A stretch of DNA of 64,000 bases from Brevibacterium sediminis (lineage in GTDB: Bacteria; Actinomycetota; Actinomycetes; Actinomycetales; Brevibacteriaceae), in NCBI RefSeq assembly GCF_013623905.1, contig NZ_JABKDD010000011.1, forward strand, positions 1 through 64,000. The letters are read 5' to 3'. Below are positions 8,937-57,173 of this stretch, piece by piece (within the stretch, counting starts at the first letter, position 1; each line of letters opens with the position of its first letter). The position numbers were made by a program, and so were the translations under genes. The notes beneath the pieces are model-generated. The model searched no databases. It worked only from the letters and a program-made list of their open reading frames with translations, and was not told the DNA's origin.

Positions 8937-8940
<4 letters not shown>

Positions 8941-10694: not shown

Positions 10695-10731
10695 CAGTCA
10701 CCGGGCCGTCGGGTGCCCAGCATCGGCCGAG

Positions 10732-10765: not shown

Positions 10766-10803
10766 GAGAACCCATGCACCTTGATCAACGAGGAGACTGA
10801 CCC

Positions 10804-31399: not shown

Positions 31400-33132
31400 T
31401 GACGTCCCTCCCGGCCCCACCACGGCGGGGCCGGGAGCGATTCCGGGTTCGCCGAGGCGGAACCCTGGCGAGGCGCCTCTTCCTCGTCCAGCTCGTCCTC
31501 ATCGTCCTCGTCTGCACCGCGCTGTCGGTGACGAGCTACGTGACGACGCTGAACAACATCCGGCACGCCACCGGCGAGCGGGTCCTGTCCATCGCCGAGA
31601 CGCTGGCCCACGATCCCTTCGTCACCGAGGCTGTGACCGGGGACGATCCCTCCGCCCGGCTGCAGCCCTACGCACTGACCGTCATCGATTTCGCCGAGGT
31701 GGATTTCGTGACGATCATGGACCGCGACGGCACGCGCTACACCCACCCCGATCCCGAACAGCTGGGCAAGACCTACCTCGGCAGCAGGGCCAAAGCCCTC
31801 TCAGGGCAGACCGAGACCGAGGAATACGTGGGCACGCTCGGCCCGTCGGTGCGCGCGATCGTGCCGATCACAGACGCCGATGGCGAGGTCACCGCCATGG
31901 TCGCCGTGGGCGTGACGCTCGAGACCCTGTCGGTGGCGCAGGCGGCCTCCCTGCCGCAGATCATCCTCGTCGGCCTCGCCGCGCTCGCCCTCGGCGGACT
32001 CGGCTCCTGGCTACTCGCCCGCTACCTGCGCCGTGTCACCCTCGGCTATGGTCCGGAGGAGCTGCGCCGTCTGTTCGCGTTCTACGATTCGGCCCTGCAT
32101 TCCCTGCGCGAGGGCCTCATCCTCGCCGACGATTCCGGTCGGCTCGTCCTCTACAACGACGAGGCCGCGTCCCTGCTCGGCCTGCCCAAGGTGGAGGAAT
32201 CGACGCCGATCTCCCTCGCCGAGGTGGCCCTGCCAGAATCTGTCCGCGACCTTCTGACGACCGGTCGGGTCGCCGTCGACGAAATCCACTTCACCGAGGA
32301 CCGAGTCCTCGTCATCAGTCAGAAACAGGCCCGGCAGCCGCGCGGCGGGCGCGATGAAGGCGGAACGGTCGCGACCCTGCGCGATCGCACGGACATCCAG
32401 GAGCTCACCGGTGAGCTGGCAACGATGACGACTCTGTCCGAGGCTCTGCGTGCGCAGACTCATGAACATGCCAACCGTTTGCACACGGTCTCCACTCTTA
32501 TCGAACTCGGCCGGGTGCAGGAGGCGCTGGACTTCGCGGTCAAGGACGAGCAGGAATCGCAGCGGCTGACGGATTCCTTCGTCGCCTCACTCGACGAGCC
32601 ATTCATCACCGCGCTCATGATCGGCAAGGCCGCGCAGGCCAATGAGCGCGGCATCGAACTCACCGTCACCGCCACCGGCGAACTCCCTCCCGAACGACTC
32701 GATGCTCGCGACCTCGTCACCGTTGCCGGCAATCTTCTCGACAATGCTTTCGACGCGGTCGCGGACTCGGATGAGAAGCACGTGTGGGCGGACTTCGTCG
32801 CCGCTGACGGGGAGCTCATCATCACCATCGCCGATTCCGGTGCCGGAGTTGCGGGGGAGGACATCGATGCGCTCTTCCACCTCGGCGCCTCGGCGAAACC
32901 CGAGGTCGGGGGAGTGGGACGGCACGGATTCGGGCTCGTCTTGGTTCGGCAGGCGGTGAGCCGCCTCGGCGGACATATCGATGTCGATTCCGATGGCGGT
33001 GCGATCTTCACGGTGACGCTTCCACTGGGGGACATCGACGCGGCCGGCGATTACGATTCTTCGGAGAGCCACACCACGGATGGTGAGGATTCGAGTCAGG
33101 ATCGGGCGGAAGGAGACTCACGTGAGCGATGA
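31399..33132 (+). CDS. CitA/DcuS-type sensor histidine kinase
   Basis: A 577-residue membrane kinase. A helix near residues 28-50 and a second near 190-212 flank an extracytoplasmic sensor domain of about 140 residues of the citrate/malate type. A PAS domain (225-320), the phosphoacceptor LRAQTHEHANRLHTVSTLI, and an HATPase with GNLLDNAFDAV, ADSGAGV and GRHGFGLVLV follow. It likely senses an external di- or tricarboxylate. The response-regulator GTG lies inside its last codons (11-base overlap). The nearby dctA-like gene is a likely target. Confidence 0.93.
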   Translation: MTSLPAPPRRGRERFRVRRGGTLARRLFLVQLVLIVLVCTALSVTSYVTTLNNIRHATGERVLSIAETLAHDPFVTEAVTGDDPSARLQPYALTVIDFAEVDFVTIMDRDGTRYTHPDPEQLGKTYLGSRAKALSGQTETEEYVGTLGPSVRAIVPITDADGEVTAMVAVGVTLETLSVAQAASLPQIILVGLAALALGGLGSWLLARYLRRVTLGYGPEELRRLFAFYDSALHSLREGLILADDSGRLVLYNDEAASLLGLPKVEESTPISLAEVALPESVRDLLTTGRVAVDEIHFTEDRVLVISQKQARQPRGGRDEGGTVATLRDRTDIQELTGELATMTTLSEALRAQTHEHANRLHTVSTLIELGRVQEALDFAVKDEQESQRLTDSFVASLDEPFITALMIGKAAQANERGIELTVTATGELPPERLDARDLVTVAGNLLDNAFDAVADSDEKHVWADFVAADGELIITIADSGAGVAGEDIDALFHLGASAKPEVGGVGRHGFGLVLVRQAVSRLGGHIDVDSDGGAIFTVTLPLGDIDAAGDYDSSESHTTDGEDSSQDRAEGDSRER

Positions 33133-33823
33133 TGCCGCGCTGCGGGTGCTCATCGTCGAAGACGATCCGATGACGGCGCAGGCGCACGCGGACTTCGTGG
33201 CCCGGGTGCCCGGGTTCGAGGTCGTCGGAACGTGCCTGGGCGGGCACGAGGCGATCGAACGCTTCGACGAACTCGCCGCGGCCGGGACGCCAGTCGATAT
33301 CGTCCTCCTCGACATGAACCTCACGGATTCGCACGGCCTCGAGGTCGCCGGGCGGCTGAACTCGCGCGGTCAGGACGTCGATATCATCGCGATCACCGCG
33401 GTGCGGCACCTGCAGGTCATCCGTTCGGCGATCTCGTCGGGCATCACCCAGTACCTCATCAAGCCGTTCACCTTCGCGGCGTTCAAGGAGAAGTTGGAGA
33501 ACCAGCGCGAGTTTCGGCGCGGACTCAGCGGATCGGGGTCGTTGGCGACTCAGGCCTCGGTGGACAATGCGCTCTCGGCCCTGCGGTCGGTATCGTCGAC
33601 GACTCTGCCGAAGGGGCTCATCGCCGAGACCTTGGAGGCCGTGTCCGCCTTCGTTCGTGATTCCACGGTTCCGGTCTCCGCCACCGAGGTGGGGCGGCGG
33701 CTTGATCTGTCCAGGGTCACCGTGCGCCGGTACTTGGAGCACCTTGTCTCGACGAAGCAGGCGATCAAGCAGCCTCGGCACGGGACTCCGGGGCGACCGG
33801 AGTACGAGTACCGGTGGGTGTGA
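33116..33823 (+). repeat. Long direct repeat, copy 1
   Basis: This 708-base unit matches 49472-50179 in the same orientation. The match starts at ACTCACGTG, 6 bases before the start codon, and stops at the stop codon. The encoded proteins differ at 8 of 233 positions. Offset is 16,356 bp. Confidence 0.9.
33122..33823 (+). CDS. CitB/DpiA-type response regulator, copy 1
   Basis: A 233-residue response regulator. The receiver domain has acidic VEDDP, a phosphorylated aspartate in IVLLDMNLTDSHG, and the TYLIKPF-type lysine motif (here QYLIKPF). The C-terminal half has a helix-turn-helix (VSATEVGRRLDLSRVTVRRYLEH), as in the CitB/DctR class. The GTG start has GGAGG-like AAGGAGACTCAC in front and overlaps the kinase gene. 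It should be phosphorylated by the kinase at 31399 and activate transport or catabolism of organic acids. A near-identical copy lies at 49478. Confidence 0.94.
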   Translation: MSDDAALRVLIVEDDPMTAQAHADFVARVPGFEVVGTCLGGHEAIERFDELAAAGTPVDIVLLDMNLTDSHGLEVAGRLNSRGQDVDIIAITAVRHLQVIRSAISSGITQYLIKPFTFAAFKEKLENQREFRRGLSGSGSLATQASVDNALSALRSVSSTTLPKGLIAETLEAVSAFVRDSTVPVSATEVGRRLDLSRVTVRRYLEHLVSTKQAIKQPRHGTPGRPEYEYRWV

Positions 33824-34259
33824 GGGCACTTCAAGCTGTCGCTGACTGACCCGTCGGTGAGTTCACAGAACTTAACGGAGCTGACGGATTTCTCCACGAA
33901 GTCATAAAGCGCAATATTGCATTTCTGTCATCAGTGGACTTGTCATGAAATTTCAATGAATAAGTGGATGCCTGACCGAACTCTATTCAAGAGCTCGGTG
34001 ACTGCCTACATATAGCCCCAGATCAGGGGGCAGTGTGTGCTCTGGTTCCCGTCTGCATCAAACATATTTCCTTGTGGCATCTGTCCGCATCGTGAGTATG
34101 ACGATTTTGCAATATAACGGAACGATAACGTTGTGAATGACGGAATGATTACTCATAGATGATTCCGTATCGTTGTGTGCGATCTGCCAGGAAACTGCAT
34201 GTTTCCGTCCAGGCTGCTGTCTGCGATTGATCAGGAACGATGAACCGATATGGAGGACT
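33824..34259 (+). other. 436-base AT-richer gap before surface protein A
   Basis: No gene is visible. The stretch is AT-richer than its surroundings and holds an inverted repeat, ACGGAATGAT (34140-34149) and ATGATTCCGT (34159-34168) with one mismatch. It also holds the element TGTGGC-NN-CTGTC-NN-CAT at 34073-34090, which recurs before the VWA adhesin. It probably carries a regulated promoter and a long leader for the surface protein. Confidence 0.6.
34073..34090 (+). promoter_or_regulatory. Element shared with VWA adhesin promoter region
   Basis: TGTGGC, two bases, CTGTC, two bases, CAT. All 14 fixed positions recur at 54731-54748, also in an intergenic region upstream of an LPRTG surface protein on the same strand. 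The function is unproven. Confidence 0.35.
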
Positions 34260-36746
34260 ATGAAGATGCTCGGAGGTCGACCCTCGACCGGCCGCAAGAT
34301 CGCTGTGGGCGCGGTGGCTGCCACGACCGCAGTGGGGCTGACCCTGTTGACGACGTCACCAGGTGCAGCCGATGAAAAGAACCCGAAGGAGGATTCAGAG
34401 GCTCTCGGGCAGCTGATCGATGCGGACCTGCTGTCCGAAGATGCCGTCGATGCGCTCTCGGCCTACAGCAGTTCTCCTTCCAGTGAAGCGGAAGACAGCA
34501 CACCGCTGAACCTGGAAGTGCTGCAGTCCCTCGGGCTCGAACTTCCGGGAATCGACCTCCCGCTCATCAGCAGTGAGGGTGGCGACGGTCTTCTCGAACT
34601 CGGCGAGGCCGGTGCGCTCAACTCCTACGGACGCGCTGCTTCCGGCAACGCGGCCAAGGCCAGTGCCGGAGCCGTGGGCGAGGACGGTGCACTCAACCTC
34701 GATGACGTCAACAACGGCGATTTCGGCAATGCCAAAGTCGATCTGACATCGCTCCTGGGGCAGCTGAACCTCGACGGTGTCACTGACCAGATCGTCGACG
34801 AGCTCAGCCTCGAACTGGGTGCGGTCGGGTCGACCGCCGAGAGCGATGGCAAGACCACCGACTCCGAGTATGTCGTCGCCGACGGAACGCTCACCGTCTC
34901 CAGCCCTGCTGTGGGCGGCCTTTCCGATGAACTCACCAAAGCCGTCGACGGAGTCGGCGGTTCCCTCGACGACGCGATCGGCGAAGAGGGACTCGTGGAC
35001 GAGCTGTCCGGACTCGGACTCGACGTCGATGCGGGGCTCGCCTCTGTCAAGATCGGCGGAGAAGACACGAAGGTCTCCGTCGACACCGGCGATGCGCTCA
35101 ACAGCGTCGTCGAGAACGTCGTCAACAAGAAGCTCGAGGACGAATCGGGCATCGTCTCGATCGACTTGGCCAACGGCGACATCAAGATCGACCTCGCCAA
35201 GGTCGTGAAGGGTGCCGACGGTGAGGACCTCAACGGTCTGGATCCGAACACTCAGGTGCTGACCAGCGATACGATCTCGAAGATCACCGACGCCGTCGCA
35301 GACGCCCTCGGTGCACTGTCGGGTCGGGTCAATGAGACTCTGACCGATGCACTCAACGATGTGCATCTCAACATCGCGTTGCCCGCGAACATCACAGCTG
35401 CGGGTATCCCTGCGGCTGACGGCAAGGTCACCGTGGATGCCACGCTGGGTCAGCTGGCTGGCACGGACGATTCCGAGCCTGTCGTCGACACCGACCTCTC
35501 GCTGGCCGGCGTTCCTGTCGGCACTGTGGTCAACGCCATCACCGGACCGGTGGTCCAGGCGGTCCTCGGAGTCACGAAGCCGATCATCGGGGGAGTCCTC
35601 GACTCGACGACCGAAGAGACAACCGATGCTGTCACCGGCATCGTCGACCCTGTCCTGGACGGACTCGAACCTGTCCTCAGCGGTCTTAACGAGGTTGTCG
35701 ACCTCACGATCAATGAGCAGTCGCCCAACCCCTCGAGCGAAGGAGCCTCTGCTCAGTCCTCGTTGGAGTCGAGCCGAGTCGATGGCAACAACGGCCCCGG
35801 GTTCACCGTCAACGCTGTGAGCCTGGAACTGCTTCCCGAATCCGATGCGATCGATGTCAACCTCGCTTCGTCCTCGGTCCGTGCGACCGCTGACGATGCC
35901 CCAGGCGACGACGATGCAGACGCGGACGACAGCGCTGCCGCCGATCAGGACGATTCGGCCGATGCCGATTCTTCATCTGATCCCGACGCAGCTGCTGACC
36001 CGGACGCCTCGGCTGCTGATGATGCCGACTCGAACGTCAACGTGAACGCTGCGGCTTCGGCCTCGGCTTCCGCTGACGCCGACGACGATTCGAACCCTGC
36101 CGCACAGGCAGCGTCAGAGGCAGCCGCCGATGACGATGCCAACGACTCAGCATCGGCGGAGGCCGACGCGAGCGCGGAAGCGGCTGCCGAATCGGCTGCC
36201 ACCGAGGATGCGTCATCGAACACCTCAGCTGATTCGACCTCTGATCCGAACGCCTCGTCGCAGCAGGCATCGAACGCCGCTGCAAACGCGGACAACTCGG
36301 ATTCGACGAACGCTGATTCCTCGGCTGCCGCCGATGCCGATCCGGCTGCAGCAGCATCGGTGGCATCGACTGCCGATTCGTCCAACGAGGCTTCGGTTGA
36401 GGCCGCGGCCAATGCCGACGATTCGGCTGAGGCAGACTCGACCGACGAGGCAGACGCTTCCGCATCGTCCGATGACAACGCAGATGGTGCAGAGACCAGC
36501 GCGTCGGCTGACGGCGACGAATCAGACACCTCGTCCGATGAGAACGCCTCTGCCGCTGCAAGCGCTTCGGCTGACGTCGAAGCCGGCGCAGATGCGGACG
36601 CTTCGGGCAGCAGCGACGGCGGAGACCTGCCGAGGACAGGTGCCGAAGGCACTATGGCCATGGCCGGACTCGCGGCGCTGTTGATCGCCGGTGGCGCGGC
36701 AGCGGTCTACGCGGCTCGCCGTCACCGCAACCGCGGCGGCCTCTGA
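34260..36746 (+). CDS. LPRTG-anchored acidic surface protein A
   Basis: An 828-residue exported protein. It has a signal peptide (residues 1 to about 37, ending near SPGAADEKN), a 500-residue domain of repeated L-D-V and A-V-D motifs that resembles choice-of-anchor-G-type surface proteins, then an Ala/Ser/Asp-rich low-complexity stalk (about 545-785). The sorting signal is LPRTG at residue 790, followed by a hydrophobic helix and RRHRN tail. GGAGG precedes the ATG. The stalk resembles Sdr-like adhesin stalks. It is related to surface protein B. No sortase gene is in the window. Confidence 0.85.
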   Translation: MKMLGGRPSTGRKIAVGAVAATTAVGLTLLTTSPGAADEKNPKEDSEALGQLIDADLLSEDAVDALSAYSSSPSSEAEDSTPLNLEVLQSLGLELPGIDLPLISSEGGDGLLELGEAGALNSYGRAASGNAAKASAGAVGEDGALNLDDVNNGDFGNAKVDLTSLLGQLNLDGVTDQIVDELSLELGAVGSTAESDGKTTDSEYVVADGTLTVSSPAVGGLSDELTKAVDGVGGSLDDAIGEEGLVDELSGLGLDVDAGLASVKIGGEDTKVSVDTGDALNSVVENVVNKKLEDESGIVSIDLANGDIKIDLAKVVKGADGEDLNGLDPNTQVLTSDTISKITDAVADALGALSGRVNETLTDALNDVHLNIALPANITAAGIPAADGKVTVDATLGQLAGTDDSEPVVDTDLSLAGVPVGTVVNAITGPVVQAVLGVTKPIIGGVLDSTTEETTDAVTGIVDPVLDGLEPVLSGLNEVVDLTINEQSPNPSSEGASAQSSLESSRVDGNNGPGFTVNAVSLELLPESDAIDVNLASSSVRATADDAPGDDDADADDSAAADQDDSADADSSSDPDAAADPDASAADDADSNVNVNAAASASASADADDDSNPAAQAASEAAADDDANDSASAEADASAEAAAESAATEDASSNTSADSTSDPNASSQQASNAAANADNSDSTNADSSAAADADPAAAASVASTADSSNEASVEAAANADDSAEADSTDEADASASSDDNADGAETSASADGDESDTSSDENASAAASASADVEAGADADASGSSDGGDLPRTGAEGTMAMAGLAALLIAGGAAAVYAARRHRNRGGL

Positions 36747-36775
36747 AATAGATTGAGCCGCTGATCGCACCGGTC

Positions 36776-36815
36776 AGGTGGTGGGGTCGAAGTCGTCACT
36801 TCGCACCCGCCGCCT
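36776..36815 (+). terminator. Terminator after surface protein A
   Basis: Arms at 36776-36793 and 36798-36815 pair over 18 positions, with three non-Watson-Crick positions, around a CGTC loop. The hairpin begins 30 bases after the stop codon. Confidence 0.6.
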
Positions 36816-36887
36816 GGCCTCGTGCGTGAGACCCCCGGACGCGCCGGGGAAGACAGACGAAATGCCCGAGCAGAATCCGGATTCGTG

Positions 36888-37676
36888 ATGGAAGATAATG
36901 CGACTGAGGTCGTGCCCCGACCTCGTCCGACGATCAAGCGAACACTAGTGATCGTCGCGATGGCGATTACGGGATTCCACCTGTTCGCGACTCTGCTGTG
37001 GATCGCACCATCGTCCGCCCCGCGCGAGGCGGTTCCGGGGGAACTGCTCTCCAAGTACATGATTCCGCTGTGGGGTCAGTCGTGGAGTGTGTTTGCGCCG
37101 GAACCGATCAACGGGGACTACTACTTCGATGTGCGTGCGGTGGTCAAGACCAGCCGCGGGGAAGAAATCACCGAGTGGGTGCGGGCAACCGATGTCGAGC
37201 TGGACCATTCGACCTACAGACCCTTCCCGCCGCGATCAGCGGGGTTGGGCATCGGCCTGGCCTCGGACCTGAAAGGATCTTGGGACGAGTTGCCGGCGGA
37301 TCAGAAAGCGATAGTGAAGCTTGACTACTTCAGGGGCGGCGACTCCGTGGAACGTCTGTCGACGAAACTCCGCGAATATGAGGATCCCGACGGTGCGGTC
37401 GGTGGCTACCTCGACAGCGAGCATATGGCCACGGCGTATGCGACTCAGGTCGCGAGAGCCGTGTGGGGTGACGACGTGGAGCGAGTGCAGTATCAGGTTG
37501 CCCGGCAGAATGTCGTCCCGTTCGCCGAGCGCAATGACGAAAGTGCCACGCTCCCGAAGCTTCAACCGGTGCCGGTCGGGTGGCGAGCCTCAGTGGTCGA
37601 GGACGCTCAGTCTGATGAGGAGTTCGCCAAGTACTTCTGTGCCTCCGACGTCGTGAGGTGCGCCGATGAAAACTGA
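36888..37676 (+). CDS. DUF5819-family membrane protein
   Basis: A 262-residue protein with one N-terminal membrane segment (about residues 17-40, LVIVAMAITGFHLFATLLW). The following soluble part has WGQSWSVFAPEPINGDYYFDV, a hallmark of DUF5819. The remainder is probably extracytoplasmic. The start is uncertain: ATG at 36888 or GTG at 36822, neither with a strong ribosome-binding site. It overlaps the HTTM gene by 11 bases. Such pairs occur together in actinobacteria; their reaction is unknown. A partner role with the gamma-carboxylase-like protein is plausible. Confidence 0.75.
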   Translation: MEDNATEVVPRPRPTIKRTLVIVAMAITGFHLFATLLWIAPSSAPREAVPGELLSKYMIPLWGQSWSVFAPEPINGDYYFDVRAVVKTSRGEEITEWVRATDVELDHSTYRPFPPRSAGLGIGLASDLKGSWDELPADQKAIVKLDYFRGGDSVERLSTKLREYEDPDGAVGGYLDSEHMATAYATQVARAVWGDDVERVQYQVARQNVVPFAERNDESATLPKLQPVPVGWRASVVEDAQSDEEFAKYFCASDVVRCADEN

Positions 37677-38913
37677 GATCAGAACGGACGAAGCGGATGC
37701 AGCCTCGGTGAAGACCGATTCGGCGAAGATCGATTCGACGGATCCGGAAGACGCAAGCACCACCTCGGCGCCGATCGGTCCGACGAACACGGAGTTTGTG
37801 CCGCTGTCGGCCCAGGTGTGCACGGCAATCGCACGAGGTTGGGATCGGCTCGAGGCTCTGCTCACCGGACGCTACCACGCGACCTATGGCTTGGCCGTGA
37901 CGCGGATCCTCATCGGGTTGACCGGTCTCGGCCTCATCCTCACGAATTTCAATGCCCGTCATTACGCCTTCGGCGTCGGAAACGCCTGGAGCGGGGAGAT
38001 CGCGGATCCGAAGAGCGACTTCCCGAATATCTGGCTGTTCTCCCTGTTCCATCAGGTAGTGACTGTTCCTCCGCTGTTCACGGCAATGATGATCGGTCTG
38101 GCGGTCCTCGCCATCGTCATCACTCTGGGCTGGCACACGCGGATTGTTCTGCCGTTCTATCTGATCCTGTGGGTCAGTTTCATCGAACTCAACGACGGCG
38201 CCGGTGATCAGGGCGACAACGCCTACCGGATGTTCATGATCGCCCTGCTCTTCGCCGACACCACTCGCCGGTGGTCGTTAGACGCGCGTCGCCGGACTCG
38301 CCGATCTCGCCGGGCCCACGTCGTGGATCATGCGGCAATTGATGGAGTCGGCACCGATTCCGATTCACGTGGCACGCCTGTCGGAAGTCAGTGGCGGTGG
38401 GTGTTGATCACAGCCAACAATCTCGCCATCGTAGTGCTCGCCTTTCAGGTGTGTGCGATCTACATGTCCGGCGGTCTGTACAAGGCCGGTGGTGCTGCCT
38501 GGCAGCACGGTTTCGCTGTCTACAACCCGCTGCAGACCCAGCAGTTCGGGACATGGCCGGTGCTCTCGGATCTCGTCACGGCGTGGGGTCCGATGGTGGT
38601 GGTGATCTCCTGGGCCTCGGTGCTGTTCCAGTGCGCGTTCCCATTCATGCTCTTCAATCGATGGACGAGGACCGCAGGCCTTCTGGGCATTCTGTCGTTT
38701 CACCTGGGGATCGCATTGCTGATGGGGCTCCCGTGGTTTTCGCTGACGATGATCGCTGTCGACGCGATCTTCATCCGTGACCGCAGCTTCGCCGCCCTCA
38801 GTGTTTGCCTGCGCGGGTGGTGGCGTTCGACCGCGCCGCGGCCGGTACCTTCGACCAGAGAAGCCGACTTGCTCGAAAGAGCCGAAATTCTGGCACAGTC
38901 CGGTACCACTTGA
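37666..38913 (+). CDS. HTTM (vitamin-K gamma-carboxylase-like) membrane protein
   Basis: A 415-residue protein with several membrane helices. The first hydrophobic unit follows GRYHATYGLAVTRILIGLTG, the typical HTTM opening, and later segments hold FHQVVTVPPLF and MSGGLYKAGGAAWQHG. The HTTM fold is shared with vitamin K-dependent gamma-carboxylase, but bacterial members are mostly uncharacterised. It starts within the DUF5819 gene. Located between two acidic LPRTG proteins, it could act on the envelope, but no substrate is evident. Confidence 0.8.
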   Translation: MKTEIRTDEADAASVKTDSAKIDSTDPEDASTTSAPIGPTNTEFVPLSAQVCTAIARGWDRLEALLTGRYHATYGLAVTRILIGLTGLGLILTNFNARHYAFGVGNAWSGEIADPKSDFPNIWLFSLFHQVVTVPPLFTAMMIGLAVLAIVITLGWHTRIVLPFYLILWVSFIELNDGAGDQGDNAYRMFMIALLFADTTRRWSLDARRRTRRSRRAHVVDHAAIDGVGTDSDSRGTPVGSQWRWVLITANNLAIVVLAFQVCAIYMSGGLYKAGGAAWQHGFAVYNPLQTQQFGTWPVLSDLVTAWGPMVVVISWASVLFQCAFPFMLFNRWTRTAGLLGILSFHLGIALLMGLPWFSLTMIAVDAIFIRDRSFAALSVCLRGWWRSTAPRPVPSTREADLLERAEILAQSGTT

Positions 38914-42997: not shown

Positions 42998-43024
42998 CCC
43001 TCATCTTCGAGATGAGATGAGATC

Positions 43025-43062
43025 GGGTGTGGTGATCATGCGCTCACATGATCACCACACCC
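43025..43062 (+). terminator. Perfect 16-bp terminator hairpin
   Basis: GGGTGTGGTGATCATG and CATGATCACCACACCC pair completely with a CGCTCA loop, 27 bases after surface protein B. The right arm contains an ATG that opens the next reading frame, so that ATG is not a real start. Confidence 0.75.
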
Positions 43063-43122
43063 ATCCACTATTTTCGACTTCCCGCCCGTGTGGGGCGGCT
43101 TCTTCTGGGGATCGATACCGAA

Positions 43123-44472: not shown

Positions 44473-44995
44473 GGACCGAACACGCTCCGATCTTAGGGTC
44501 ATGAAGCAGTCATGCAAGAGTCATTAACCACCCCAACCCAATTTGTCTTGTTTTATGAGATGACCTTTGAATGATTCATTGAGGCAAGTTATTCTGTCTT
44601 TGTCGGTAAATCTCATGAGTACATCGGCGCTTGCGTGGCGGCATCCTCAGTGCAGTCACGTGTCCCCTCCTGGGCGTGTTGAGCGCGCGTCCGGGAGGGT
44701 CTCCATTCAATTTATGCGATTCGCTCTTGAATTGATCGCCATTGGCCGCCACTACTTCCGATCGGTATTCAGTAACTTTCTCCCGTTGCTCAACTCATCG
44801 CCTTTAAGGAACCAGAGAATATTCACGAAATAGTCATTGTGGCGGCAGGAAAAGGTCATGCATGTGCAAAGGAGCTTGCAAACATGCGATAAACTGCCGG
44901 GATAAGAGCACGCTGCCAAGCGGAGGCTCTGGCGTTGCTGGGCAGCGCGGCTCCTTCCACCTACTTCTGTCGAGACCGATGAGGACCGGATAGAC
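44473..44995 (+). other. 523-base gap before sigma/TM gene
   Basis: No gene. A hairpin with arms CCCTCCTGGGCG (44665-44676) and CGTCCGGGAGGG (44688-44699) has two imperfect pairs. An inverted repeat GCATGTGCAA (44860-44869) with TTGC and ACATGC (44876-44887) overlaps a possible -35 box, TTGCAA. The rest is AT-rich. Confidence 0.5.
44860..44887. promoter_or_regulatory. Inverted repeat over candidate promoter of sigma/TM gene
   Basis: GCATGT pairs with ACATGC, and the inner GCAA with TTGC, around AGGAGC. The right part contains TTGCAA at 44876-44881, a possible -35 box, with GATAAG at 44901-44906 as a weak -10. Confidence 0.35.
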
Positions 44996-46618: not shown

Positions 46619-46832
46619 GACGCCGATAGGCTGTCGAAAAACGGACAACCGTGGCCCCAGTCGCTGATCGACGCAATTGGGCCCAACTGAGCTGACAGCA
46701 GTTCGCCGGTCGCCTAGCGGCGCCGGCAGCTTCCCGGAGCAGGACCGACATACGGTGAGGAACGGTCTGCCGAGATATCATCTCGACAGACCGGTAAGCT
46801 CGCTGTGCTATACATGTTTATGTAGCAACGCA

Positions 46833-46864
46833 CATTTCCCCTCACCTTGGCAGGCCCCACTGCC
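46833..46864 (+). promoter_or_regulatory. Upstream element shared by the two LuxR genes, copy 1
   Basis: CATTTCCCCTC, CCTTG, GGCA and CCCACTG occur in this order 40-70 bases before the LuxR start. The same blocks occur in the same order at 50288-50321 before the paralog. Conservation outside the coding region suggests a binding site. Confidence 0.5.
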
Positions 46865-46901
46865 ACGGCTCCCCGCCGACAGCACAGAGAAGATTCCAGC
46901 A

Positions 46902-49235: not shown

Positions 49236-49471
49236 GGAACATCGTGTGCGATGGAGATTTCGTCGAAAGTGAGGGGCGAGATCGCTGGATGACCCACAAT
49301 ACGCCGGGCAGGCTGGACTGGTCGTCGGGGGCCGGTGCTTTCGGGCTCCGTCGCGTGCTGGTCCGGTGTGGTGGTGTCAGCAGAGGACTCGGTGGCGGAG
49401 GGGTTGGTGGGATCGAAGTCGATGTCTTCGATGTCAAGTCCCCTAAGACGGCATCACTTCACGGCTTGGGC

Positions 49472-50179
49472 ACTCACGTGAGCGATGATGCCGCGCTGCG
49501 GGTGCTCATCGTCGAAGACGATCCGATGACGGCACAGGCGCACGCGGACTTCGTGGACCGCGTGCCGGGATTTGAGGTGGCCGGAACCTGCCTGGGCGGA
49601 CATGAGGCGATCGAACGCTTCGACGAACTCGCTGCTGCAGGCAGCCCCGTCGATATCGTTCTGCTCGATATGAACCTCACGGATTCGCACGGCCTCGAGG
49701 TCGCCGGGCGGCTGAACTCCCGCGGTCAGGACGTCGACATCATCGCGATCACCGCGGTGCGGCACCTGCAGGTCATCCGTTCGGCGATCTCGTCGGGCAT
49801 CACCCAGTACCTCATCAAGCCGTTCACCTTCGCGGCGTTCAAGGAGAAGTTGGAGAACCAGCGCGAGTTCAGGCGCGGGCTCACGGGCTCGGGGTCGTTG
49901 GCGACTCAGGCGTCGGTGGACAATGCGCTCTCAGCGCTGCGGTCGGTCTCGTCGACGACCCTGCCGAAGGGCCTCATCGCCGAGACCTTGGACGCAGTGT
50001 CCGCGTTCGTCCGCGATTCCGCAGTCCCGGTCTCGGCCACCGAGGTGGGGCAGGGCCTCGACCTGTCCCGCGTCACCGTCCGCCGGTACCTCGAACATCT
50101 CGTCTCGACGAAGCAGGCGATCAAGCAGCCCCGGCACGGAACGCCCGGGCGGCCGGAATACGAGTATCGGTGGGTGTGA
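49472..50179 (+). repeat. Long direct repeat, copy 2
   Basis: This copy matches 33116-33823 from ACTCACGTG to the stop codon. The homology does not extend into the flanks: the Shine-Dalgarno of copy 1 is missing here. Confidence 0.9.
49478..50179 (+). CDS. CitB/DpiA-type response regulator, copy 2 (orphan)
   Basis: This is 233 residues long, with 225 identical to copy 1. The receiver aspartate and helix-turn-helix are intact. Two of the eight changes lie in the recognition region (GRRLDLS becomes GQGLDLS), so target specificity could differ. There is no kinase gene beside it. The strong AAGGAG of copy 1 is replaced by TTGGGC, so translation may be weak or start elsewhere; an in-frame start as far as 49244 is open but looks non-coding. 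It sits between the two LuxR paralogs. Confidence 0.85.
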   Translation: MSDDAALRVLIVEDDPMTAQAHADFVDRVPGFEVAGTCLGGHEAIERFDELAAAGSPVDIVLLDMNLTDSHGLEVAGRLNSRGQDVDIIAITAVRHLQVIRSAISSGITQYLIKPFTFAAFKEKLENQREFRRGLTGSGSLATQASVDNALSALRSVSSTTLPKGLIAETLDAVSAFVRDSAVPVSATEVGQGLDLSRVTVRRYLEHLVSTKQAIKQPRHGTPGRPEYEYRWV

Positions 50180-50287
50180 CGGGCCTGCTGTGCAAACGAT
50201 GAGATTTGCCGCAGGCAAGCCGTGAAATGCTCTCGGTTCACCAGCGGTACTAAGGCCATGCGGTACTCTGGCAACTGCCCAACGCCG

Positions 50288-50321
50288 CATTTCCCCTCCT
50301 TGTGGCATTTCCCCACTGTCC
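50288..50321 (+). promoter_or_regulatory. Upstream element shared by the two LuxR genes, copy 2
   Basis: CATTTCCCCTC, CCTTG, TGGCA and CCCACTG lie in the same order as at 46833-46864, 38-71 bases before the GTG of the second LuxR gene. Confidence 0.5.
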
Positions 50322-50358
50322 GTCGGCAACCGCCGCACTAGCAGAGAAGAACCGTGCC

Positions 50359-52650
50359 GTGACCAGTACCTCCCCTGTAGACCCCAAAAGCAATGACGAG
50401 GCGACTCCCCTCAAGGACTCCGGATTCGATTCCCGGTTCGGTCCTCGCGCATCGTCCATCGAAAAATTCGCCGAGGCGGTCGGCCACAGCGATGAGCTGT
50501 CGCCGACCGCTCTCGAACAGCTCTTCAGCTGCAGCGGTGGCCGCCCCCGCATAGCCGACGCGCTCGTACGAGCACGTGTCAAAGCCGGCATACCGCTGAC
50601 CGATAATGACCCCGACCGCATCGATGCAATGCTTTCACCAGCGTTGACGCCGAAGATCGAGGGCGCCAAGCGCGAATCCGGAGCGCTCTACCTGCTGACC
50701 CTCTTCGCGTGGGCCCCGCGGATCACCTCGGCCATGGTCGATCTGGTCCACTCTGCCTTCGCCGCCGCAGAGTTGGCAGCATCGGCGGGCTCCTCGCCTG
50801 AAGGACTCACTTCGCTCCTCCTCGATGAGGGACTCCTGACAGTCCCGACCGACGGCGATGAGGTGTTCACGGTCCCGCCCATGATTCGAATGCTCATGCG
50901 TCGAATAGTCACGTGCGATTCCGACTCCGCCGCCAGAAGCCCGCGTGAGGCTCTCGGAGCTGCGATCTCCGATTCCATCGGCCGACAGCGTTCGGGCAGA
51001 CGCGAAGGTCTGACCGAGGTCGTCGATCTCGTCCTCGAGCTACGTGATTGGCACGTGCTTGAACGCACATGGGCACGCCGTTCGGTCAATGTCTTCATCG
51101 ATGCGCCCAGCGCCGTCGAGGCCTACCTCAGGGTCCCAGAGGATGTGCTGGCTCAAAATCCGATCCTCATCCTGGCTCGCAGTGCCGCCCGTCGCATCGA
51201 CTCGACCCGTACGCGACTGGGCACCGACGATATGCCGACACTGCTCTCAGCCACCGACTTCTCCAGCATCGTGCTGCCGGAGATGCGCGGACTCCTGGCG
51301 GCCGAGTCCGAACGTCGACTCACCGCCGATGAGATGTCCGTGGTGACCATGCTCGAAGCGAGGATGCACCGGCTCAACCGGGAGAACGAAGCCGCATTGA
51401 ACGTCATCGAGGTGGGACGGGAACGTCTGCGCCACCTCGGCGCGGGTGAGCCCGGGCCCACGCTGATGTTGCAGGCTGAGCTCAACCTCGAGCACGGGCG
51501 GAATCTGATCGTGGCTGGTCGCTTCCCTGAAGCGATGTGCGTGCTCCAGCGGGTCGTCCACTTCGCCGAGATCTATGCCCCGAACTCGCCGCACCCGCTG
51601 CTCGCGGGGCTCGTCGAGGCCGCCCTGGCTGGAATGGGGCACGGGCACGGATCTGACATGGACCGCAACCTGGAACGGGCACGTGAGGACGCTCGCAGAT
51701 TCGGAATGGCCGCGCTGCCGGACGAATACACAGCCCTGTGCATCGAATTGATGCGCAGCCTGGACCGGCTCGATCTCGATGCAGCCCGACTGATCATCAT
51801 CGCACTTGACCAGGCGAAGCCCACCCAATTCCTGGGGCCCATTCCGCACGTGCTGAGAAGTCTGTGCTTTGTGTATGAAGGGCGAGCTTCGGCCGCGGCG
51901 AAGCTGCTGGTGGAGAGTCTGCAGGTTCAGCTTCTGCCGACGACAGGCGTACTTAGCGCACGGTTCTCGGCCATCGTCAACATCGTCAGCTTCGTGCTGG
52001 CCGCTGCGGGCGAGGGGAAGGCCCTGCAGGGCTTGGCCGAGCGGATGAGTCCACCGAGTCCGGGGTACTCGGTCGTCAAAGCGCGTCAGGCCTTCGTCTT
52101 CGGGCAGCATGATCCGCTGTGGACCGCCACAGGGCAGTTGTTGGCCGGCGATGAGGGGCCCAGGCTCAAGAACTCAGCCATGGCTCTGCGCGCCGACATG
52201 CTCCACCACGAGGGCCGTTCTGCTGAGGCGCTGGAGGCCTTCGTCGACATGCTCGACTACTGCGCGATCACCGCATCGGTGCTTGCCGTCACTCAGTTGT
52301 CGAAGTCTGCTCGAGAGGCGCTCATTCCCGTTTCGGCCGATTGTTCCGAGTGGGAGGCCGTGGCGCGGTCGTTCAATTCTGCAGAGCTCACGGCGGCCGT
52401 GTTGCAGAAGCGTCTGCTCGAACTGCCAGAGACTTCTCCGGTGTCCCCGGATTTCCAGACCGATCTCACCCCGGCCGAACAGTCGCTGCTGTTCGCGATC
52501 GACTCATCGAAGTCGATCGCGCAGATCGCCCGCGAATTCGGAGTGGTGTCGGGAACGCTGAAGAACCGCCTGTCCGCGCTCTACCGCAAGCTCGGCGTGC
52601 GCAGCCGTGCCGAGGCTGTGGCCCACGTCCACCGCGGTCAGCAGAGCTGA
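50359..52650 (+). CDS. Large LuxR-type regulator, paralog 2
   Basis: A 763-residue paralog of the protein at 46902, similar over its whole length. Examples are VARSFNSAEL-type helices and the C-terminal IAREFGVVSGTLKNRLSAL with YRKLGVRSRAEA. The GTG start is aligned with the TTG of paralog 1 by the shared AGAGAAGA site. No ATP-binding motif is seen. It is convergent with the sigma/anti-sigma fusion gene. The body may bind a small ligand or protein through TPR-like repeats. No known named regulator matches by eye. Confidence 0.8.
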   Translation: MTSTSPVDPKSNDEATPLKDSGFDSRFGPRASSIEKFAEAVGHSDELSPTALEQLFSCSGGRPRIADALVRARVKAGIPLTDNDPDRIDAMLSPALTPKIEGAKRESGALYLLTLFAWAPRITSAMVDLVHSAFAAAELAASAGSSPEGLTSLLLDEGLLTVPTDGDEVFTVPPMIRMLMRRIVTCDSDSAARSPREALGAAISDSIGRQRSGRREGLTEVVDLVLELRDWHVLERTWARRSVNVFIDAPSAVEAYLRVPEDVLAQNPILILARSAARRIDSTRTRLGTDDMPTLLSATDFSSIVLPEMRGLLAAESERRLTADEMSVVTMLEARMHRLNRENEAALNVIEVGRERLRHLGAGEPGPTLMLQAELNLEHGRNLIVAGRFPEAMCVLQRVVHFAEIYAPNSPHPLLAGLVEAALAGMGHGHGSDMDRNLERAREDARRFGMAALPDEYTALCIELMRSLDRLDLDAARLIIIALDQAKPTQFLGPIPHVLRSLCFVYEGRASAAAKLLVESLQVQLLPTTGVLSARFSAIVNIVSFVLAAAGEGKALQGLAERMSPPSPGYSVVKARQAFVFGQHDPLWTATGQLLAGDEGPRLKNSAMALRADMLHHEGRSAEALEAFVDMLDYCAITASVLAVTQLSKSAREALIPVSADCSEWEAVARSFNSAELTAAVLQKRLLELPETSPVSPDFQTDLTPAEQSLLFAIDSSKSIAQIAREFGVVSGTLKNRLSALYRKLGVRSRAEAVAHVHRGQQS

Positions 52651-52761
52651 CTGCGTGGCAATCGTCCGCGGAGAGGCGGCCTACTCGCCGGCCAGTTGCC
52701 AGCAGTGCTGGAGCGATCGATCCACCACGAGCAGTCCGATCTCTCAGCCTTCGGCGGTGGA

Positions 52762-54507
52762 TCAGTGGCAGAACTCCCACCAGCCGACGACATGACAGTG
52801 GGGGCCTTCGTTAGGGTCCTCTCCATCGGCATCTGAGACGCCAGAAGCGTCTGCGTCTGAGGCTGAGTTGACCCCCGCATCCGGTTCGCTGGACGCGGTC
52901 GAGGTCCCCGTGTCGCTGTTCGCAGCCGCATCGTCAGTGTCTTCCGACGATTCCGATGAGGAATCGGAACTCGGTTCTGGTGGAGCCGAAGGAGTACTAC
53001 TCGGCTCGAGGCTGGGCTCGCTCGAGTCCGTCGGCTCCTCGGCCGGTGTGGGTGCGGCGGTCTCCGGGGCCGCTTCGGATGAGGGCTCATCCGGTTCCAC
53101 AGGCGGAACCTCAGCGGGATCGTTCCTCGGCTGCTGCCGGTCGGACGAAGAAGGGGTCGACGCCTCCTTCTCCGGGTGCGGCGCCTGAGCGTTCTTCCGG
53201 GAGTCCCGCGACCGCTCTTCCTCGCGTGAAGCGGAGCGCTCAGTGGCGTTTTGCTCGTGCCCGTCCGAGCCCTCAGCACTCTCATCGCCACCGTCCGGCT
53301 CAGCCGTGCGCGGTGGAGACGGTGAGGAAGGCGTTGTTTTTGGTGGATCAAATGGCGCCGAAGAGGTCTCTTCCGCAGCAGCAGACTGTGGGGCAGGATC
53401 GCGCTGAAGATTCACAAGTGTGGCGGCACCGGCGGCAATGGCGGCGCTGGCAGCGATGCCTGCGATTACAATTTTGACCACCGACGCTCCGGCCGCAATT
53501 CCGGCAGTGCTGCCTCCAGAGCTGCCCGCTGCCGCAGTGCTCGTGCTGCTCTTTGATACTGCGGCTGCCGCACTTGAGTGCGGCTCGGCGACGACCGAAC
53601 CCGACTGCTCACTCGGCCCGACGCTCGCCGTCCCCGCGCCCGTCAGCAGCATAGCTTCTTCCGGGAAATGGCCCCATTCGATGAGCGCGGCAGCGAGAGC
53701 TGCCGGCGTGATCCATACCTGGAACTTCGCATTGATGCTGCGGAGCTCAAAGGACTGACGGCGGCAATGACTGCAGTGACTGAGATGAGCCTTGATCGCT
53801 TCAGCGCGTTTCGGGCCCAGCTGTTGCCGCACGAACCGCGCAAGCGCAGAGGAGTACTTCGCGCATTCGGGGGCGCTGGGTTCGACGTGTTCCTGCAGAT
53901 AGGCGGCCCGCAGCCCCTCTCGTGCGCGACGCAGGAGCGAACTGATGGAATTCGACGACAGCCCCAGCATCGCGGCCGCATCAGCGGTCGATATCCCTTC
54001 AATATCGATGAGTGTGAGCGCGCTCTGCCAGGCGTCGGGGAGAGTTTTGAAGGCGCGGCCCAGCTGATCTCGCTCTGCCACCTCGGCGGCGAGATCGCTC
54101 GGTTCGCTGTCGGCAAGAAACGTCAGCACATCGGGTTCGACGATCGTCGTCGCACGAACCATCGCCGTGCGCCGGTACGATTCGGAGCGAACAGCGGCCA
54201 TGAGATACGCCTTGAAGGACTCATCCGGCCCTTTTCCTCGCCCCCACGCGCGCCAGATCTTGGCGAAAGCCTCGGCGACGGCATCTTCCGCTTGCGCACG
54301 ATTTCGGCTGAGGCGCAGTGCGACATGCAATGCAGGGAGCCGATGTCGGGCATAGAGCTCACCGTAGGCGGCCCGTGCAGCTGCAGATTCGGGCCGGTGA
54401 TCACGGATGCAGGCACAGAGGTCGGAGTCGCTGAGTTCACTGCTCGGGTGTGGCAGTCCGAAAGGGGAGCGGGAACTATCGGCCGACGATGACCACTCTT
54501 CGGTCAT
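52762..54507 (-). CDS. ECF sigma factor fused to zinc-finger anti-sigma, TM helix and extracytoplasmic tail
   Basis: A 581-residue protein. ECF region 2 lies at about 30-115 (YGELYARHRLPALHVALRL, AEDAVAEAFAKIWRAW) and region 4 at 145-205 (TLPDAWQSALTLIDIEGIS, LLRRAREGLR). A zinc-binding anti-sigma motif follows (Cys215 and the His241-x3-Cys245-x2-Cys248 triad). A membrane helix lies near 340-364, then a Ser/Pro/Glu-rich outer domain ends in HCHVVGWWEFCH. Sigma and anti-sigma are thus one chain. I chose the ATG at 54507; a TTG at 54570 is possible. It is divergent from the VWA adhesin, a likely target. Confidence 0.85.
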   Translation of the reverse strand: MTEEWSSSADSSRSPFGLPHPSSELSDSDLCACIRDHRPESAAARAAYGELYARHRLPALHVALRLSRNRAQAEDAVAEAFAKIWRAWGRGKGPDESFKAYLMAAVRSESYRRTAMVRATTIVEPDVLTFLADSEPSDLAAEVAERDQLGRAFKTLPDAWQSALTLIDIEGISTADAAAMLGLSSNSISSLLRRAREGLRAAYLQEHVEPSAPECAKYSSALARFVRQQLGPKRAEAIKAHLSHCSHCRRQSFELRSINAKFQVWITPAALAAALIEWGHFPEEAMLLTGAGTASVGPSEQSGSVVAEPHSSAAAAVSKSSTSTAAAGSSGGSTAGIAAGASVVKIVIAGIAASAAIAAGAATLVNLQRDPAPQSAAAEETSSAPFDPPKTTPSSPSPPRTAEPDGGDESAEGSDGHEQNATERSASREEERSRDSRKNAQAPHPEKEASTPSSSDRQQPRNDPAEVPPVEPDEPSSEAAPETAAPTPAEEPTDSSEPSLEPSSTPSAPPEPSSDSSSESSEDTDDAAANSDTGTSTASSEPDAGVNSASDADASGVSDADGEDPNEGPHCHVVGWWEFCH

Positions 54508-54730
54508 CGGCTCATCGTCTCGAAAGTAAGGTGCGGATTCAGACGGGGAAATTGCATGAGGGGACCTCAACTGTGAGTTCGGGGCATTTCAGAGGGGAGT
54601 AAAAATTCTACAGGAGCAGAACCCAGCTTCCCAATCACCCAGGGTTGGGAACAAGGCGACCAATCCTCGGCCGCGTGAGCAGGGATACCCACGCGCGGCT
54701 GAGCCATTTCGTTTCGGGTGGAAACGCGGC

Positions 54731-54748
54731 TGTGGCCCCTGTCGTCAT
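54731..54748 (+). promoter_or_regulatory. Element shared with surface protein A promoter region
   Basis: TGTGGC-CC-CTGTC-GT-CAT matches TGTGGC-AT-CTGTC-CG-CAT at 34073-34090 at all fixed positions. It lies about 270 bases before the adhesin start. Confidence 0.35.
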
Positions 54749-54899
54749 GCATTGGAGAGAAACTTCTGAAACTCGCGAACGAAATCGATTGCGCAGAGGT
54801 CTCAGCCTATGGGGAGGTCAAGATCCACGATCGCTCCGAGCCTGAGCCGGCAGTTAGTCAACAGCCGGTTCGGGACCCCTCCGAGTCCCGGACTCGTCC

Positions 54900-54939
54900 G
54901 AGGCGGTCCTGCTGAACCACGTGGCTGCAGGGCCGCCTC
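54900..54939 (+). other. Stable hairpin in likely leader of VWA adhesin
   Basis: GAGGCGGTCCTGC (54900-54912) and GCAGGGCCGCCTC (54927-54939) pair with one mismatch around a loop that holds the palindrome CCACGTGG. It begins 120 bases before the start codon, which suggests attenuation or a mRNA stabiliser. Confidence 0.45.
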
Positions 54940-55019
54940 ACAACCCCATAGACAGTGCATCCGATCATCTGGCATTCGTCGAATGCGCAGGTGACGGCCT
55001 CTTCTGAAGGAGAAGACCC

Positions 55020-57173
55020 TTGTCCCTGAAGCGACCTCCTATGACGAGGCACGGAGCGGCGATCCTCGCATCGTCTGTTCTTGCTTCGTTCGCATTCCTC
55101 GGTGCATCCGTCGCGCCGGCACAGGCCGCGGCAGAACCCCTGCCGAACCCCTCACTGGCCGATAAATGCGGCCTCGATATCGGAGTCGTCCTCGACCTCT
55201 CGAATTCCCTGTCCGATCGAGACGTCGACGATTCGAAGTCGGCGGTCAAATCTGTCGCCAGCGGCCTCTCGGGGACTCCCAGCAGAGTGTCTGTCAACTC
55301 GTTTGCAACGTTCGGACCCGACGGCACCAACGAGCCGATCAACAGCGCGTCTGTCGCAACCTCGGACTCAGTCGACGAACTCAATAAGCAGATCGACGCG
55401 CTTCGGCGGGTTCCGCAGAACTCAGGAGGCACGAACTGGGACCGCGGGTTGGGGCAGTTGGGCGGTACAAACCACGACTTGGTACTGTTCGTCACCGACG
55501 GCAAGCCCACGGCATACGGGGTGCCGGGGTCCGAACGGGGCAATACCGACCGCGGTACGCGAACCGATCAGATCGACATCGACAAAGCCATCGAATCGGC
55601 GAATGCTCTGAAATCTCAAGGTACCAAGGTGGTCGGTTTGGGAGTGGGCAGCGAGATCAACGAGGGCAACATCAAGCTGGTCTCGGGCCAGACCGCAGGC
55701 GACGACTACTATGTGGTCTCTGATTACTCCGAATTGGCCGAACAGCTCCGTGAGATCGCCACGAAGAGCTGCCGAGGAACTCTCAACGTCACCAAACTCA
55801 TCGACCCTGGGTCCGGCAAACACGCGAAGAACACCGCGAAACACCCGGGCGAGGGCTGGACGATCTCGTCCCCGGATTCGGTGGACGGAGTGGAGAAGAC
55901 CACCGATGCGGCCGGGACGGTGAGCTTCAAACTGCAGACCCCGGCCGAAGGCGTACAGGCTTCCGAGAAGCAGCAGGAAGGCTACCGACTGCAGCAGCAG
56001 TCCGGTTCAAACGCGCTCTGCACCGCAGACGGACGCAAGGTCGGCACCAGAAACATCGCAGACGGGTTCGAATTGACCGAATCTGTCGACACGGACGCGA
56101 TCATCACCTGTCGGCTCGTCAACGAACAGATCCCCGGAGGGCTGAGCTGGAAGAAGGTCGACGAAGACGGCGACGCGCTCGCCGGTGCTGAATTCACACT
56201 GACGGGTCCGGACGGCGAGGACTTCGTCGTGGCCGACAACGGCGAGCTCGACGCCGACGAGGCGGCCGGGCAGTTCGAAGTGACCGACTTAGCCTGGGGC
56301 GACTACACCATTACGGAGACCAACGCTCCGGACGGATATGTACTCACGGACGAGACGCAGACCGTGACGATCACCGGTGAGAAGCGGGACATGGAGTTCT
56401 CAGACATCGTCAACAAGAAAGATGTCGAAGGCGGTGCCGATCCGGAGGGCGAAGCTTCTGCAGACCCGAGCTCAGACGCGGACGCTTCTACTGATCCTGA
56501 TGCAGACGCTGATCTGAACGCGTCGCCTGACGCGGATGCATCGTCAGACCCGGGCGCTTCTACTGATCCTGATGCAGACGCTGATCTGAACGCGTCGCCT
56601 GATGCGGATGCATCGACTGACCCGGACACATCATCCGACCCGGACACTTCGTCCGACGTGAACGCCGAGTCCGAAGCGTCGAAGGATTCAGATGCCGAGG
56701 CCTCGACCGATCCTGACGGTGGTGACGATGCTTCGACTGACCCGGACGGCAAGGACGAGGGGTCAATGGATATTGACGTAGACGCCGCAGCCGATTCGGA
56801 CGGCCAGGATACGGCAGCGACGGACGCCGATGCCAAGGCATCGACCGACCCAGGTGCTGACGCGGCAACTGATCCGAGTGCTGACGACTCGGCCGCAGCA
56901 GATCCAGAGGCTGATGACTCGGCTGCGACGAACTCGAACGCGGATAGCGCTGGGTCGAGCACGTCGAAGTCCGGGAGCACTTCAGCAGATGGATCCGCGA
57001 CCGACTCAGGAGGGAGCCCCAGTGGTGGGACCGACTCCGGCAGCGACGGCTCTCATCTGCCGAGGACTGGCGCCGCTGGAGCGATGACGTTCGGCCTCCT
57101 CGGCGTACTCCTCGTTGGGGGCGGAATAGCCGCTATCCTCGTATCGAGGCGACGGAAGACCGACATGCTGTGA
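55020..57173 (+). CDS. VWA/SpaA-type LPRTG adhesin or pilin
   Basis: A 717-residue exported protein. After a signal peptide (about 1-38), a von Willebrand A domain begins with the metal-ion site Asp59-x-Ser61-x-Ser63 (LDLSNSLSD) and TDGKPTA. A SpaA/prealbumin-like domain (about 372-450) has WKKVDEDGDALAGAEFTL and ITETNAPDGY. An acidic D-x-D-A-S-T-D-P repeat stalk leads to LPRTG at 680, a hydrophobic helix and RRRKTDML. The TTG start has AAGGAG 7 bases upstream; an ATG at 55041 is less likely. It probably binds a host or surface ligand. It is divergent from the sigma/anti-sigma fusion. Confidence 0.88.
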   Translation: MSLKRPPMTRHGAAILASSVLASFAFLGASVAPAQAAAEPLPNPSLADKCGLDIGVVLDLSNSLSDRDVDDSKSAVKSVASGLSGTPSRVSVNSFATFGPDGTNEPINSASVATSDSVDELNKQIDALRRVPQNSGGTNWDRGLGQLGGTNHDLVLFVTDGKPTAYGVPGSERGNTDRGTRTDQIDIDKAIESANALKSQGTKVVGLGVGSEINEGNIKLVSGQTAGDDYYVVSDYSELAEQLREIATKSCRGTLNVTKLIDPGSGKHAKNTAKHPGEGWTISSPDSVDGVEKTTDAAGTVSFKLQTPAEGVQASEKQQEGYRLQQQSGSNALCTADGRKVGTRNIADGFELTESVDTDAIITCRLVNEQIPGGLSWKKVDEDGDALAGAEFTLTGPDGEDFVVADNGELDADEAAGQFEVTDLAWGDYTITETNAPDGYVLTDETQTVTITGEKRDMEFSDIVNKKDVEGGADPEGEASADPSSDADASTDPDADADLNASPDADASSDPGASTDPDADADLNASPDADASTDPDTSSDPDTSSDVNAESEASKDSDAEASTDPDGGDDASTDPDGKDEGSMDIDVDAAADSDGQDTAATDADAKASTDPGADAATDPSADDSAAADPEADDSAATNSNADSAGSSTSKSGSTSADGSATDSGGSPSGGTDSGSDGSHLPRTGAAGAMTFGLLGVLLVGGGIAAILVSRRRKTDML

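Follow-up and report, generated by a model that had tools for sequence, protein, structure and literature searches.

We have analysed a window of 64,000 nucleotides from Brevibacterium sediminis (positions 1 to 64,000 of NZ_JABKDD010000011.1, forward strand; contig C2 of the 4.17-Mb focal genome) and, within it, a 24-kb block of genes for surface proteins and regulators (33116-57173). As judged from synteny and orthologue comparison over 57 Brevibacterium genomes, the block is composed of two alternative surface-protein cassettes, A and B, at one fixed chromosomal slot. We consider it rather probable that the two cassettes have been stacked at this slot and that cassette B has at its core a unit of three parts: a membrane-fused sigma factor (SigB) that would be released by proteolysis, a structured RNA-like element (R1) and a divergently encoded adhesin-like protein. 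An earlier note on this DNA had taken the whole block for one cell-envelope island with its own regulators. The genes that it named (for three LPRTG proteins, a DUF5819-HTTM pair, a copper-amine-oxidase-like lipoprotein, two sigma-like factors, two LuxR regulators and an extra response regulator) are all present where it placed them, and it is their unity that did not hold.

The left landmark of the locus is a dctA-like C4-dicarboxylate transporter gene (26175..27692, minus strand), named from its translation. On the plus strand follow the genes for a CitA/DcuS-type sensor histidine kinase (HK; 31399..33132) with sCache_3_2, PAS and HATPase_c domains, and for a response regulator (RR), RR1 (33080..33823, likely start 33122), with Response_reg and DpiA-like HTH_64 domains. 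We have mapped the slot over about 40 kb flanking the LuxR genes in 14 related genomes (15 regions), using a simple gene caller that recovered all reference genes of the window. The dctA-like gene, HK and RR formed a common left backbone in 14 of the 15 regions, the dctA end being outside the region or uncalled in two of these. The HK gene was 76-97% identical in 14 mapped loci, and the dctA-like gene had a counterpart with 87-97% identity at the same relative position in 12. Most backbone regions carried on the right flank some of a set of AraC, DUF2000, ArsB-like, FAD-oxidoreductase, PGM and LysR genes.

What lies between these flanks varied. Cassette A, with the order coaG1, DUF5819, HTTM, coaG2, copper-amine-oxidase-like (CAO) lipoprotein, SigA and LuxR-A, occupied the slot in G041, G003 and G024; cassette B, with the order LuxR-B, SigB and VWA/SpaA LPRTG protein, occupied it in G027, G038 and G040 and, in a looser form with extra genes separating LuxR and sigB, in G032 and G045. 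LuxR-B was found at the slot without sigB in six genomes (G018, G043, G019, G048, G029 and G053), accompanied by another LPRTG protein in G053 and by no surface genes in the other five. In most mapped loci the LuxR-B orthologue stood immediately 3' of HK-RR, with no gene or one small gene between. The B. oceani genome G024 carries both cassettes unlinked, B being at a different locus that constitutes the fifteenth region, and the tandem arrangement at the slot was specific to the focal genome. Hence, the block is not conserved as one unit, and the single island was ruled out by synteny: A and B alternate elsewhere and are joined only here, by a duplicated RR gene. The slot, next to a housekeeping two-component system, shows surface-protein exchange within Brevibacterium, and the case advises caution, as an apparent island can be two modules joined through a duplicated gene. 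In G041, G053, G018, G019, G029 and G040 the RR gene is followed by a small reverse-strand gene (~290-315 aa, two transmembrane (TM) helices) before the next cassette gene; in G041, G053 and G018 it has the repeated C-terminal motif YSDMMHMSKQGIYDQLTSEYGGQF.

The junction between the cassettes is marked by a direct repeat. The gene order of the focal genome is HK, RR1, cassette A, RR2, cassette B, and positions 33116..33827 and 49472..50184 (both plus strand) are 90.9% identical over 713 bp, a length that spans the RR gene. RR2 (open reading frame (ORF) 49244-50179) has no kinase gene adjacent, and the left edge that had been given to the island, 33116, is the edge of this repeat. Just before RR2, positions 49317..49471 (plus strand) hold a remnant that matches the gene 3' of cassette A in G041 (86% DNA identity), and this similarity ends at 49471, where RR2 begins. 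RR2 itself is 95% identical in DNA to the RR of the cassette-B genome G038, and the DNA 3' of RR2 is 96% identical to the G038 spacer between RR and LuxR-B. HK and RR1 were closest to G027 (93-98%; RR1 DNA 93.5%), and the DNA 3' of RR1 resembles cassette-A genomes. The simplest reading is that cassette A was placed before cassette B by a recombination through the RR gene that would have left the second RR copy behind. The extra response regulator is therefore real, but it is a second copy of RR1 at a recombination junction; the duplication is explained without any role in the surface genes, and its candidacy as an island regulator was ruled out. The likely counterpart of the remnant gene, downstream in the focal genome (L098), gave no Pfam match at 1e-5.

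RR1 and the HK constitute a two-component pair, and together with the nearby dctA-like gene the region looks like a carboxylate-uptake locus separate from the surface genes. The likeness to DcuS/DcuR and DpiB/DpiA lies in the domain make-up of HK and RR and in the dicarboxylate-transporter-like gene nearby. In contrast to those systems, the HK-RR pair here anchors an insertion slot, outside the surface system, and the RR falls far under the curated equivalog cut-offs (124 bits for DcuR, cut-off 262; 93 for DpiA, cut-off 264).

Cassette B begins with LuxR-B (50302..52650, plus strand) and continues with SigB on the minus strand (52762..54507; the ORF extends to 54570). SigB has extracytoplasmic function (ECF) sigma regions 2 and 4 (PF04542, E=1e-10; PF08281, E=9e-9) followed by a zinc anti-sigma domain (PF13490, E=3e-5), whose HxxxCxxC motif is conserved among orthologues. 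Hydropathy places a single TM helix C-terminal to the zinc finger, at about residue 346 in the 581-aa form, leaving a tail of ~215 residues. The translated tail is rich in Pro, Ser, Asp, Glu and Ala, with proline-rich repeats clear only in G006, G035 and G042. It gave no Pfam match at E up to 0.1, hence no carbohydrate-binding domain was recognised. A Cys-His tip, HCHxxGWxxxCH in general form, closes the chain in all 11 SigB orthologues whose C-terminus was read. In the window its codons and the stop occupy 52762..52797 (minus strand; CHVVGWWEFCH), and small variants occur in G045 (HCHDFGRWQYCH) and in a B. casei genome (NCHDVGWGWHCH). A DNA pattern for the tip motif, run over 396 genomes of the order, matched sigB only. 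The relatives of sigB came from B. permense, B. oceani, B. renqingii, B. casei and others.

By its sequence features, SigB is like the membrane-fused sigma factors of ECF52 type. Of these, proteolytic release has been proposed for SCO4117 of Streptomyces coelicolor (PMC5826349); ECF48 and ECF53 are related membrane-fused groups (PMC8999054). SigB shares with these groups the ECF sigma domain, the fused zinc anti-sigma domain, the TM helix, the long outer C-terminal extension and the occurrence in Actinobacteria. Thus, the fused architecture is known in kind, and what stays unusual is the tip of SigB together with its pairing with R1. Compared with ECF52 by published architecture, SigB differs in having no recognised carbohydrate-binding domain, in its HCHxxGWxxxCH tip and in its RNA-like partner, usually joined by an adhesin. 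The IutY-type ECF243 factors are also alike in carrying sigma and anti-sigma in one chain, IutY being freed by regulated proteolysis on a surface signal; IutY differs in serving iron-starvation surface signalling in Pseudomonas putida, that is, in another organism group and with another signal input (PMC8999054). Few membrane-fused ECF sigma factors have a known signal or target. The SigB locus offers a candidate sensor of ~12 residues, a strong candidate target in the divergent adhesin and an adjacent covarying element, so that signal, sigma factor and output could be tested together. Our literature searches, which covered surface islands and small RNAs of Brevibacterium as well as ECF factors beside pilus genes, found nothing on this locus.

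A SigB-related fused protein, 26% identical, is encoded in a region of G023 (L141, minus strand, reverse-strand positions 2945-11243); it ends in a Cys pair (CSWAPQLQC), gave no Pfam match at 1e-5 and is divergent from VWA/SpaA genes, which are followed by a sortase gene. The four other long sigma factors of the focal genome (399-425 aa) had no predicted TM helix.

R1 was first seen when the sigB-adhesin spacers of eight genomes were aligned, as a conserved block at 54755..54944 (190 nt, plus strand, read towards the adhesin gene). With a covariance model, full-length R1 was found in 12 of the 57 genomes, always adjoining sigB and read away from it; in G012 only the terminal hairpin is present, where a contig ends. 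A set of 198 genomes sampled evenly across the order (at least 15 of them of this genus) gave two strong matches, both in this genus, and a single weak one, which is all that spoke for R1 in other genera. In the 12 sequences, 17 of 53 pairs had changed on both sides (mean after shuffling, 8.4), and 90.9% of the cells were paired, compared with at most 46.5% when the partners were slid, in an alignment fitted to the structure of the model, which biases the pair counts towards it. The structure that RNAalifold derived itself from the same alignment had 47 pairs, 14 of them with double-sided changes. The plus-strand folding z-scores ranged from -3.1 to -6.1, and the alifold energy was -51 for the plus strand vs. 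-37 for the reverse. A known RNA family was ruled out, as Rfam gave no match at the gathering score in the window, nor at E up to 1 in 54400-55200. A coding region was rejected as well: each frame is interrupted in at least one of the 12 sequences, and the length of many indels is not a multiple of three.

R1 and sigB are linked in three settings, namely the HK-RR slot, the other locus in G024, and a locus in G006, G035 and G042 where R1 lies between two non-surface genes, the next one encoding a class I/II aminotransferase. The spacer 3' of R1 in the last three genomes, read by eye, suggests that the aminotransferase gene has start signals of its own. Because the pair persists across these settings, R1 is, by gene neighbourhood, tied to SigB more closely than to the adhesin. 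The terminal hairpin alone matches elsewhere in the genus, often on both strands (G012 C109, G018 C1:1185669-1185737, G041 C7:20531-20576 and others), and may be a common terminator or palindromic element. A GGAAAC-N16-TCGTCA arrangement picked by eye in the window as an ECF promoter before R1 is not claimed, since the segment was not shared by other species.

The adhesin-like protein of cassette B (55020..57173, plus strand; PF00092, PF17802 and LPXTG) carries VWA and SpaA domains with an LPRTG anchor and starts at a TTG codon preceded by AAGGAG. Its close orthologues across the genus (at least 76% identity; ten, the one of the window included) were all in sigB genomes. Nine of them stand next to sigB in divergent orientation; in G012 the two genes are separated, each at the end of a different contig. 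More distant VWA/SpaA genes in G010 and G020 had no sigma gene nearby.

Cassette A lies wholly on the plus strand. It comprises coaG1, an LPRTG choice-of-anchor G surface protein (34173..36746; NF033766, E=4e-70); a DUF5819 protein (36822..37676; PF19136, E=6e-32); an SdpB-like HTTM membrane protein (37666..38913; PF05090, E=5e-14); coaG2, with LPRTG, choice-of-anchor G (E=2e-31) and MG2-like repeats (39356..42997); the CAO lipoprotein (43048..44472; PF01179, E=5e-32); SigA, sigma-like with one TM helix and a long C-terminal tail (44996..46618); and LuxR-A (46677..49235). Orthologues of coaG1 were found in G041, G003 and G024, and the order from coaG1 to LuxR-A is kept in all four cassette-A genomes; these are closely related at the genes in question, so that the conserved order is weak evidence. 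A coaG2-like gene paired with a CAO lipoprotein gene occurs at another conserved locus with no sigma or LuxR gene nearby (G028, G044, G056 and G005), and the lipoprotein is also present in G046, G002 and G052. In G029, G027, G002 and G005, SigA paralogues (35-46% identical) stand, in turn, at a locus without LPRTG genes; those of G050 and G051 have related surroundings. The gene neighbourhoods thus point to a weak regulator-surface gene link in cassette A: because the coaG2-CAO pair occurs without regulators and the SigA paralogues without surface genes, control of the cassette by SigA or LuxR-A is disfavoured, though not decisively.

Both sigma-like factors of the earlier note have their TM helix and tail, whereas a recognisable region 2 was present in SigB only. 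In SigA, region 4 is intact, and it was matched in 10/10 family members, none of which matched region 2 (PF04542) at E up to 0.01. The zinc-finger cysteines are absent from cassette-A SigA and still present in the G050 and G051 paralogues. The single TM helix lies near residue 315, before a proline/serine/acidic tail. The predicted fold is helical throughout; region 4 can be superposed on solved structures of sigma region 4, and taken whole the model bears a weak resemblance to full-length ECF factors. Two readings fit SigA: it may be a sigma factor whose region 2 is unusual, or a sigma-like regulator that has lost the ability to bind core polymerase. Its tail has tandem repeats at 46404-46524, and its length differs between species.

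LuxR-A and LuxR-B are paralogues with 48% identity, both large helical regulators with a C-terminal GerE helix-turn-helix (HTH). The LuxR-B model is almost wholly helical with the HTH at its C-terminus, and the best Foldseek match among solved structures, for its middle part, was MalT domain III. On this model LuxR-B is probably a MalT-like solenoid activator without the ATPase domain. The likeness to MalT-type LuxR regulators lies in the TPR-like solenoid and the C-terminal HTH; the difference is that Pfam recognised no STAND ATPase domain in LuxR-A or LuxR-B.

Taken as a mechanism, the preferred reading of cassette B would have SigB tethered at the membrane and kept inactive by its own zinc anti-sigma domain. 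Its tail would be outside, where the Cys-His tip probably senses a metal, the redox state or a bound partner. A signal at the tip would lead to proteolysis and free the sigma domain, and this, as we infer from the gene order, would direct divergent transcription of R1 and, in most genomes, of the adhesin gene. R1 could either act as a leader, tuning or limiting expression of the adhesin, or be a small RNA in its own right under SigB; the latter is favoured by how the genes are arranged in the B. casei group. The suggestion of one-chain surface sensors is carried by SigB, through its architecture and the presence of every close adhesin orthologue in a sigB genome, whereas the link of SigA to surface genes is weak. 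More tentatively, and with clear doubt on our side, SigB and R1 could be a mobile regulatory pair of a new kind, in which a membrane-tethered sigma factor with an outside Cys-His tip and a partner RNA, obligate and of a novel class, together set surface-protein expression.

Several points weigh against this account. The associations of sigB with the adhesin (Fisher 7e-9) and with R1 (Fisher 2e-11) come with values that ignore the relatedness of the genomes. In G006, G035 and G042 SigB and R1 are present without the adhesin, beside the aminotransferase gene, so that the adhesin need not be the target of SigB. R1 lacks a T-run at its terminal hairpin, and we found no conserved promoter of ECF type for it; the one promoter-like pattern that we noted as conserved is directed towards sigB and looks like the sigma-70 type. 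As to the stacking, RR1 and RR2 are mosaics of related alleles along their length, and because of this the alignments do not permit fixing which copy is the resident one.

Another reading takes R1 for just a 5' leader of the adhesin mRNA, attenuator- or riboswitch-like, and gives SigB no part in transcribing it. The end of R1 is 76 nt upstream of the adhesin start, AAGGAG lies between the two, the structure of R1 is on the plus strand, and a CGAGUC segment can pair either with a 5' ACUCG or with a downstream GACUC, as in switches. Yet both alternative helices are almost invariant and have no covariation support, no Rfam family matched, and R1 is kept with sigB in the three adhesin-less genomes, where an aminotransferase gene comes next; we regard this alternative as improbable, although worth keeping in view. 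Somewhat less credit is due to the slot as a neutral hotspot for surface genes, in which the regulators would travel along without exerting control. The five genomes with LuxR-B but no surface genes at the slot and the missing region 2 of SigA would fit such a hotspot, but the strict SigB-R1-adhesin linkage for the adhesin (10/10 genomes) and the conserved pairing of R1 would not. Least likely is a single signalling-to-surface system, in which both sigma-like and both LuxR proteins jointly control all surface genes of the block. The contiguity of the genes, the constant coaG1-to-LuxR-A order in the four cassette-A genomes and the excess of spaced GTCAT pairs (see below), with repeats upstream of coaG1 and sigA, speak for it. 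The alternation of the cassettes, found together in the focal locus only, the coaG2-CAO pair without regulators, the SigA paralogues without surface genes and the close relatedness of those four genomes all count against it.

The density of anchored proteins in the block can be set against that of the genome. About 21 LPXTG-anchor genes score above the curated cut-off in the whole genome, and three LPRTG genes in 24 kb exceed what an even spread would give; comparable trios of anchor genes lie elsewhere in the genome, however, at C11:323-332 kb and C1:88-101 kb.

The CAO lipoprotein, aligned with 3loy and read by eye, keeps the tyrosine (GWYEY), an HxH pair, a third histidine and the candidate catalytic aspartate. 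Thus, the aligned positions that define a copper amine oxidase (TPQ tyrosine, three copper histidines and catalytic aspartate) are present, with Trp where Asn usually precedes the tyrosine and without the N-terminal domains of known copper amine oxidases. From these residues, the lipoprotein could be active as a surface oxidase. The coaG2 stalk contains a tandem repeat with a 33-bp unit (DDANASSNAGG) at 42614-42840. GTCAT direct repeats lie at 33927-33946, 44498-44524 and 44833-44859, upstream of coaG1 and sigA; with 7 spaced pairs in the window where chance would give 2.9, they are candidate sites for LuxR-A or another regulator. Finally, a stretch ~350 nt 5' of sigA (44580-44660) is nearly invariant in the four cassette-A genomes, with divergent flanks, and includes TGTCTTTGTCGGTAAATCTCATGAGTACATCGGCG at 44595-44629.

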